NCBI RefSeq assembly: GCF_002156965.1
Contig: NZ_CP021324.1
Span: 62,001 to 126,000, forward strand
DNA: 64,000 nt
Direction: 5' to 3'
DNA from: Candidatus Nitrosomarinus catalina
Lineage (GTDB): Archaea; Thermoproteota; Nitrososphaeria; Nitrososphaerales; Nitrosopumilaceae
Shown here: positions 30,852 to 35,792 of the stretch, piece by piece
Layout of the letters: each line of letters opens with the position of its first letter
Numbering within the stretch: the first letter of the stretch is position 1
Made by a program: the position numbers and the translations under genes
Notes under the pieces: model-generated
The model's database searches: none
What the model saw: only the letters and a program-made list of their open reading frames with translations
What the model was told of the DNA's origin: nothing

Positions 30852-31170
30852 AGGTAGTAGATCCGCTGGTTCCAGTCTAGACGAATAGCCCCATTTCAAG
30901 GCATACAAGATCCGCCACGTAGACGAGGAAGCGTGGATGCTCCACCTTAGGATTGCTCCCTCCCGGACCTCATCCCTTTCGATAGTTCGGTCTTAGAAGT
31001 TATTCCTTCGAATATTTCTAGTCCTGCAACCACCCGCCTCGGCGTGATTTCATTTCCGCACACCAAGCGGGAATTACCCATCTAGAGATTTACCCAACAG
31101 TTGCTGATCTCTGCATATAGCCGGTTTCAGAATAGGGCACGGCTGGCACCCCAATCCTACCTACTACCGC
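30852..31170 (-). ncRNA. Signal recognition particle RNA (archaeal 7S RNA)
   Basis: About 319 bases of G/C-rich sequence in an AT-rich genome. The ends pair: GGTAGTAG at the 5' end (minus strand, 31168-31161) with CTACTACC at the 3' end (30860-30853), forming helix 1 as in archaeal SRP RNAs. Near the middle on the minus strand the segment AGGTCCGGGAGGGAGCA with ...CCTAAGG matches the conserved helix 8 where SRP54 binds. The 5' part with TGAAACCGG and AGCAACTGTTGG forms an Alu-like domain. It is flanked by the ttuA gene upstream and a DUF gene downstream. Ends are good to a few bases. Confidence 0.92.
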
Positions 31171-34786: not shown

Positions 34787-35227
34787 TTAGTTTGTAGTTT
34801 CAGTTGTTTTCTCTTCTTGTGATTTTTTCTTTAGATAATTTTCAACCCAATCTAAAGTAAGAACACCTGCTTCTGCTAGATTTGTTAAAGAATTTGGAGA
34901 AGCTTCCCCTGTTACTTTGCCTTCCATTCTTCTAATTTGTCTCCATTTGAGTGATGTATTTCCACTTTTTGAATTGTAAATTATTCCAAGTACATCTCTT
35001 GCGTTCATAAATTTGATATCTCTGATTTTTTTCAATGTTACTTTATCTGCTGCTTCTACGTATATTGCACCCAAATTATCTTCTCTTTCTGCAAATACCT
35101 CTGAATCTTCTAAATAATTTCTTGGAGCATAAGATTTACACGTACTAGAAATGATAAATCTTCTAAAACTTTCCAATGTTGCAGGAGTACTAATCGTGAC
35201 CATTTTTTTTAACTTACTATTTGCCAT
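34787..35227 (-). CDS. Hypothetical protein, unrecognised (146 residues)
   Basis: A soluble 146-residue protein with an alpha/beta N-terminal half (MVTISTPATLESFRRFI and GAIYVEAADKVTLKKIRDIKFMNARDVLGIIY) and a helical C-terminal part (NSLTNLAEAGVLTLDWVENYLKKK) that ends in a charged Lys/Glu/Thr tail. I do not recognise a domain. Codon use matches nearby genes and the frame is full-length, so it is a real gene. It follows pelota's upstream side by 32 bases on the same strand, so both may share a transcript. Confidence 0.75.
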   Translation of the reverse strand: MANSKLKKMVTISTPATLESFRRFIISSTCKSYAPRNYLEDSEVFAEREDNLGAIYVEAADKVTLKKIRDIKFMNARDVLGIIYNSKSGNTSLKWRQIRRMEGKVTGEASPNSLTNLAEAGVLTLDWVENYLKKKSQEEKTTETTN

Positions 35228-35277
35228 TTATCAAGCTTCTTGAAAGACTCAAAAGGAATATCTCTAAAAACTGCCTA

Positions 35278-35335
35278 CAGGCTATGATGTTCCTATCCCT
35301 CTGATTAATGATGAGGATCTTGAGTTCTGAGCCTG
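35278..35335 (+). ncRNA. C/D box guide RNA (predicted 2'-O-methylation guide for tRNA-Leu(CAA) C34)
   Basis: A 58-base RNA with every C/D element in order. A terminal stem CAGGCT (35278-35283) pairs with AGCCTG (35330-35335). Box C is ATGATGT (35284-35290), D' CTGA (35301-35304), C' ATGATGA (35308-35314) and D CTGA (35327-35330). The guides are TCCTATCCCT (before D') and GGATCTTGAGTT (before D). By the N-plus-five rule the D guide selects the C34 position in the complementary loop CTCAAGA, which is the anticodon loop of tRNA-Leu(CAA). The D' guide target is not identified. The gene lies in the gap before yjbQ. Confidence 0.9.
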
Positions 35336-35372: not shown

Positions 35373-35792
35373 ATGAAATCATTAACTAAACATCTTACAT
35401 TTAATATTAAATCTCGAAGAGGGTTTGTCAATATTACACCTGATGTTAGAAAATTAGTAGATCAAAGTAAAGTCCAAGAAGGACTATGTCTTGTTAATGC
35501 CATGCATATCACTGCAAGTGTTTTTATCAATGATAATGAGGATGGATTACTTCATGACTATGAAAAATGGTTAGAAAAATTAGCACCTCATGAACCAATT
35601 GAACAATACAAACACAATGATACTGGAGAAGATAATGCTGATGCACATCTAAAAAGACAAGTAATGGGGCGTGAAGTAGTTGTTGCAATTACTAATGGTA
35701 ATCTAGACTTTGGTCCTTGGGAACAAATTTTTTACGGAGAATTTGATGGTAAGAGACCAAAAAGAGTTTTAGTTAAAATTATTGGTGAATAG
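35373..35792 (+). CDS. YjbQ/UPF0047 family protein
   Basis: A 139-residue member of the YjbQ/UPF0047 family, some of which show thiamin-phosphate-synthase activity. The conserved pieces are [32 protein letters not shown], the [22 protein letters not shown] metal-site segment with His residues, and [19 protein letters not shown]. The physiological role in archaea is unclear. It starts 37 bases after the C/D RNA and could share its promoter. Confidence 0.92.

Follow-up and report, generated by a model that had tools for sequence, protein, structure and literature searches.

A box C/D sRNA of an ammonia-oxidising archaeon predicted to guide 2'-O-methylation of C34 in tRNA-Leu(CAA)

We find that a short intergenic stretch of the Candidatus Nitrosomarinus catalina genome very probably encodes a trans-acting archaeal box C/D sRNA that guides 2'-O-methylation of C34 in tRNA-Leu(CAA). 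The sRNA lies in a 64,000-nucleotide piece of DNA, here called the window, taken from a genome of 1.36 Mb on one contig. The architecture of the RNA, its conservation, the target tRNA, the pairing between guide and target and the register of that pairing can all be read directly from the genomes. In the mechanism that we propose on this basis, the sRNA would be transcribed and would assemble with L7Ae, Nop5 and fibrillarin, the D guide would pair with bases 31-40/41 of the tRNA-Leu(CAA) anticodon arm, and fibrillarin would 2'-O-methylate C34, the nucleotide opposite the fifth guide position from box D. In this genome both the precursor and the spliced tRNA would be usable for the pairing.

Direct reading of window positions 35278-35335 (+) gives a complete box C/D sRNA with its stem and the elements C, D', C' and D (Table 1), laid out as CAGGC-t-ATGATGT-TCCTATCCCT-CTGA-tta-ATGATGA-GGATCTTGAGTT-CTGA-GCCTG. 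The boxes follow the order of the class, C, D', C', D, with guides inside its range of 8-13 nt, and the first-pass annotation had rightly named four boxes and guides of 10 and 12 bases. It had also described a terminal stem of six base pairs; the stem is present but has five, as a sixth pair (T35283-A35330) would take in the final base of box D. In box C the last position is U, where the RUGAUGA consensus has A. The search for C/D RNAs that was suggested as a check agrees with this reading: Rfam C/D models, both archaeal and eukaryotic, align to precisely the interval of the sRNA. The best match (snoPyro_CD, 34.9 bits, E=1.5e-5) stays below the gathering score of 45, a score that is no defining trait of the class, the models depicting individual RNAs with their own guides.

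Table 1. Features of the sRNA locus (window positions).
Feature	Position	Strand	Basis or remark
Conserved upstream element TTATCAAGCTTCTTGAAAGACTCAAAAGG	35228-35256	+	Hardly varies among 40 loci of Nitrosopumilaceae type
Box C/D sRNA, predicted mature core	35278-35335	+	Sequence; conservation in genus and order; Rfam C/D models, E=1.5e-5
Terminal stem, 5' arm CAGGC	35278-35282	+	Complementary to 35331-35335; relatives show compensatory changes
Box C ATGATGT	35284-35290	+	Sequence; relatives have RTGATG
D' guide TCCTATCCCT, 10 nt	35291-35300	+	Core CTATCCCT kept in genus; target not found
Box D' CTGA	35301-35304	+	Sequence; CTGA or TTGA among relatives
Box C' ATGATGA	35308-35314	+	Sequence
D guide GGATCTTGAGTT, 12 nt, for tRNA-Leu(CAA) bases 30-41	35315-35326	+	G35322 opposite C34
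Box D CTGA	35327-35330	+	Sequence
Terminal stem, 3' arm GCCTG	35331-35335	+	Compensatory changes with 5' arm

The target is encoded in the same genome. As had been anticipated, the tRNA-Leu(CAA) gene lies outside the window (C1:924424-924526(-), where C1 is the genome's contig), and its anticodon arm reads AGGGA CTCAAG, an 18-nt intron (ATCTCTATAATATAGGAA) placed after base 37, and then ATCCCT. The mature arm GGGACTCAAGATCCC forms 11 Watson-Crick pairs with the D guide (bases 31-41) and a G-U pair with base 30, so that the gene carries the very arm that had been predicted from the guide, G-U pair included, and aligning the two, the other check that had been proposed, turns up no contradicting mismatch. 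The register is also as described earlier, with G35322, the fifth base before box D, standing opposite C34 (N+5). The duplex comes to -18.9 kcal/mol with the mature arm versus -16.5 kcal/mol with the precursor, which pairs nearly as well because the intron begins with ATC, as exon 2 does. These first three intron bases are near-constant in Nitrosopumilaceae and the remainder of the intron is variable. The full 12-mer AACTCAAGATCC has a single occurrence in the genome, at the sRNA locus on the complementary strand; an exact search misses the target since base 30 of the tRNA is G and the run is split in the gene by the intron. Among the genes scanned, the D guide has no comparable tRNA or rRNA match except tRNA-Leu(UAA).

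The sRNA sits in a gap of 145 bases (given at first as 146) between open reading frames at 34787-35227 (-) and 35373-35792 (+), the downstream one being a UPF0047 gene. The upstream element, TTATCAAGCTTCTTGAAAGACTCAATAGG, is near-invariant across 40 loci of Nitrosopumilus type, in which its TGAAAGA stands 42-44 nt 5' of box C; there is one copy in the window, and among the loci examined it is seen only 5' of this sRNA. It is probably the sRNA promoter, an assignment by BRE/TATA position that we make because the placement of the element suits a transcript starting at the stem. At TTATCAAGCTTCTTGAAAGACTCAA(T/A)AGG the element is longer than a TATA box would require, and it starts directly at the start codon of the divergent gene. 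We rejected a minus-strand coding frame as its explanation: in the loci aligned and inspected by eye, third positions are invariant and the frame meets a stop. Elsewhere in the window, an archaeal SRP RNA gene lies at 30855-31166 (-) (Rfam RF01857, 102 bits).

Of 37 genomes of the same genus, 26 contain a strong homologue (E < 1e-9) of a 69-nt query; the other 11 give no strong match to it, and some of these 11 assemblies are incomplete. Within the genus there is hardly any variation in the boxes and the D guide, most members retain the D' core CTATCCCT, and all the tRNA-Leu(CAA) genes examined have an identical arm. The terminal stem covaries, with 35 distinct arm pairs in which the outer pairs change among CG, GC, AT, TA and G-U. 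In other families of the order, weaker homologues retain the D guide and box D, and their stems and D' guides differ.

Conservation of the guide extends well beyond the order. The pattern RTGANNNNGATCTTGAGTKCTGA, which covers C', guide and D, was scanned over GTDB representatives and found in at least 120 stretches; the 80 of these that were listed are all archaeal. Among the matches listed are Nitrososphaeria, Bathyarchaeota, Hecatellales, Thermoproteales, Thorarchaeota, Heimdallarchaeota and Hermodarchaeota, and also Thermococcus, Thermoplasmatota, Methanomassiliicoccales, Marsarchaeota, Micrarchaeota and Diapherotrites, and most of the listed loci carry box C and D' at the expected spacing. 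Many of the genomes having the pattern also have a tRNA-Leu(CAA) that contains ACTCAAGATC; in Thermococcus and Thermoplasmatota this tRNA is intronless. A version of the pattern permitting A/G at guide base 10 and T/C at base 2 is found in 109 of 200 Thermoproteota genomes, one match each. Since the target constrains the guide, finding its sequence shared between lineages is not in itself proof of common descent.

Since the four boxes are short, one may ask whether a C/D-like sequence simply arose by chance within an intergenic gap. A pattern search finds the two-guide C/D motif once in the 64-kb window and a mean of 0 times in 40 simulated Markov-1 windows, and the reversed pattern, used as a control, has 0 matches in the 200 genomes. 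Together with the compensating stem, the deep conservation already refutes a chance origin, to which we give a vanishingly small probability. A different possibility is that the RNA is real but serves merely as a chaperone or decoy, C34 being methylated by a TrmL- or Trm7-like protein. Proteins do this job in the other domains: base 34 of tRNA-Leu(CAA) receives its 2'-O-methyl group from TrmL in bacteria and from Trm7/FTSJ1-type proteins in eukaryotes. However, C34 falls exactly at N+5 in every lineage examined, which is what guided methylation predicts, and we regard a protein methylase at this site as very improbable.

It is also quite improbable, if marginally less so, that it is chiefly the D' guide, with an rRNA or some other target, that carries the conserved function, and that the tRNA match is secondary. 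The D' core is indeed conserved in the genus, and related sequences recur outside it (TAGCCCT in other families; CTAGCCC in other families and in Asgard/Bathyarchaeota). In the organism's own rRNA region no site forms at least 9 pairs with the D' guide, N+5 among them, and nothing convincing appears in the scanned tRNAs or the SRP RNA. The best candidate in the genus is 16S AGGGGTGGG, beside the 530 loop, where 9 pairs can form, two of them G-U. We reject it, as the would-be methylated base is in a G-U pair and other families show AAGGGGAGGG or AAGGGGTGGG with guides TAGCCCT, so the rRNA and the guide do not change together; 23S AGGGATA, at 7 bp only, is rejected as well. The D guide, on the other hand, is far more conserved and fits the tRNA in distant lineages whose D' guides are quite different. 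In Pyrobaculum, tRNA-directed sRNAs usually have a second guide without a target (PMC7994747).

Guided methylation of C34, the reading that we favor, raises the question of whether the tRNA is recognized before or after splicing. We compared guide and tRNA in 92 genomes having both the guide and a readable tRNA-Leu(CAA). The core tRNA bases 32-38 are invariant. At mature bases 39 and 40, guide bases 10 and 11 form Watson-Crick or G-U pairs in 71 of the 92. In 7 intron-containing genomes (families f24 and f43) the guide fits the precursor only; here the intron begins with ATC or ATT and exon 2 with ACC or GCC. Five genomes of family f34 pair with the precursor by Watson-Crick and with the mature tRNA by G-U, three genomes (families f42 and f48) have a guide that fits the mature tRNA only, and 12 genomes with an intronless tRNA (f29 and part of f24) retain an A-C mismatch at base 39. 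The apparent match of guide and intron in some lineages is suggestive only, the comparison being post hoc and the genomes related. We also considered whether tRNA base 41 covaries with the guide base beside the 10-bp core, and rejected this as not consistent; the inconsistency fits with the limit of about 10 bp on guide-target duplexes. In several other families of the order (6 loci), tRNA-Leu(CAA) apparently has a noncanonical intron between bases 30 and 31, which replaces the 37/38 intron.

The D guide can also pair with a second leucine tRNA. In the tRNA-Leu(UAA) of this genome (about C1 235100-235240), read as ACTTAAG, an intron ATCAAA.. and exon 2 ATCCTG, bases 31-40 are ACTTAAGATC, identical to those of tRNA-Leu(CAA) except at base 34, which is U34. 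The mature arm pairs with the guide over its full length with one G-U, at U34. A Watson-Crick pair is usually required at the target base, and because only a G-U forms there we treat this second target as hypothetical. The intron of this tRNA also begins with ATC. A separate guide for tRNA-Leu(UAA) (GATCTTAAGT) was found neither in the window nor in the loci examined. In bacteria, TrmL 2'-O-methylates base 34 in both tRNA-Leu(CAA) and tRNA-Leu(UAA); what it has in common with the sRNA is the (here predicted) modification of base 34 in tRNA-Leu(CAA), but it acts as a protein alone, without a guide RNA. A combined reading, in which one sRNA would serve both UUA/UUG leucine tRNAs as TrmL does and would itself be an old archaea-wide guide with the intron-containing precursor as substrate in some lineages, strikes us as rather unlikely.

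How does this sRNA relate to known systems? The first-pass annotation suggested that an RNA guide for this site would be an independent solution; it is not a newly found one, because C/D sRNAs for C34 of tRNA-Leu(CAA) have already been predicted in Pyrococcus (PMC7994747, PMC7668247). In P. furiosus, the predicted C34 site is not among the confirmed sites of a tRNA mass-spectrometry study (PMC7668247). The Pyrococcus sRNAs agree with the present one in RNA class and in both the tRNA and the nucleotide targeted, and Thermococcus members have the D guide GATCTTGAGTG in common with it. Compared with Pyrococcus, the D' guide and flanks differ, and the present host is a mesophilic ammonia-oxidising archaeon whose target gene has an intron and whose D' guide has no known target. 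Intron-dependent pairing has precedent in H. volcanii, in pre-tRNA-Met, for which an sRNA guides Cm34, and in pre-tRNA-Trp, whose intron is the guide (PMC2584109). These systems resemble the one predicted here in C/D-guided C34 methylation of an intron-containing tRNA. In H. volcanii, however, the pairing needs part of the intron, so that methylation comes before splicing (PMC2584109), whereas here both forms pair. In humans, SNORD97/SCARNA97 acts on C34 of elongator tRNA-Met (PMC6601510); this too is C/D RNA-guided methylation of a wobble C, as we predict here, but in another tRNA, by eukaryotic RNPs and with two cooperating RNAs.

Both the type of RNA and its target site are thus already on record, as predictions in Pyrococcus. 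In a literature search of incomplete coverage we found no description of this guide in ammonia-oxidising archaea. What is new is the breadth of conservation, the guides that fit one form of the tRNA alone, unspliced or spliced, and U34 of tRNA-Leu(UAA) as a possible second target. The guide-target pairs provide exact sites for methylation mapping, and the precursor-only and spliced-only lineages offer a way to test whether splicing or methylation comes first. Matching guides occur in TACK, Asgard, DPANN and euryarchaeal genomes, which suggests that RNA-guided C34 methylation of tRNA-Leu(CAA) is widespread, and perhaps ancestral, among archaea.
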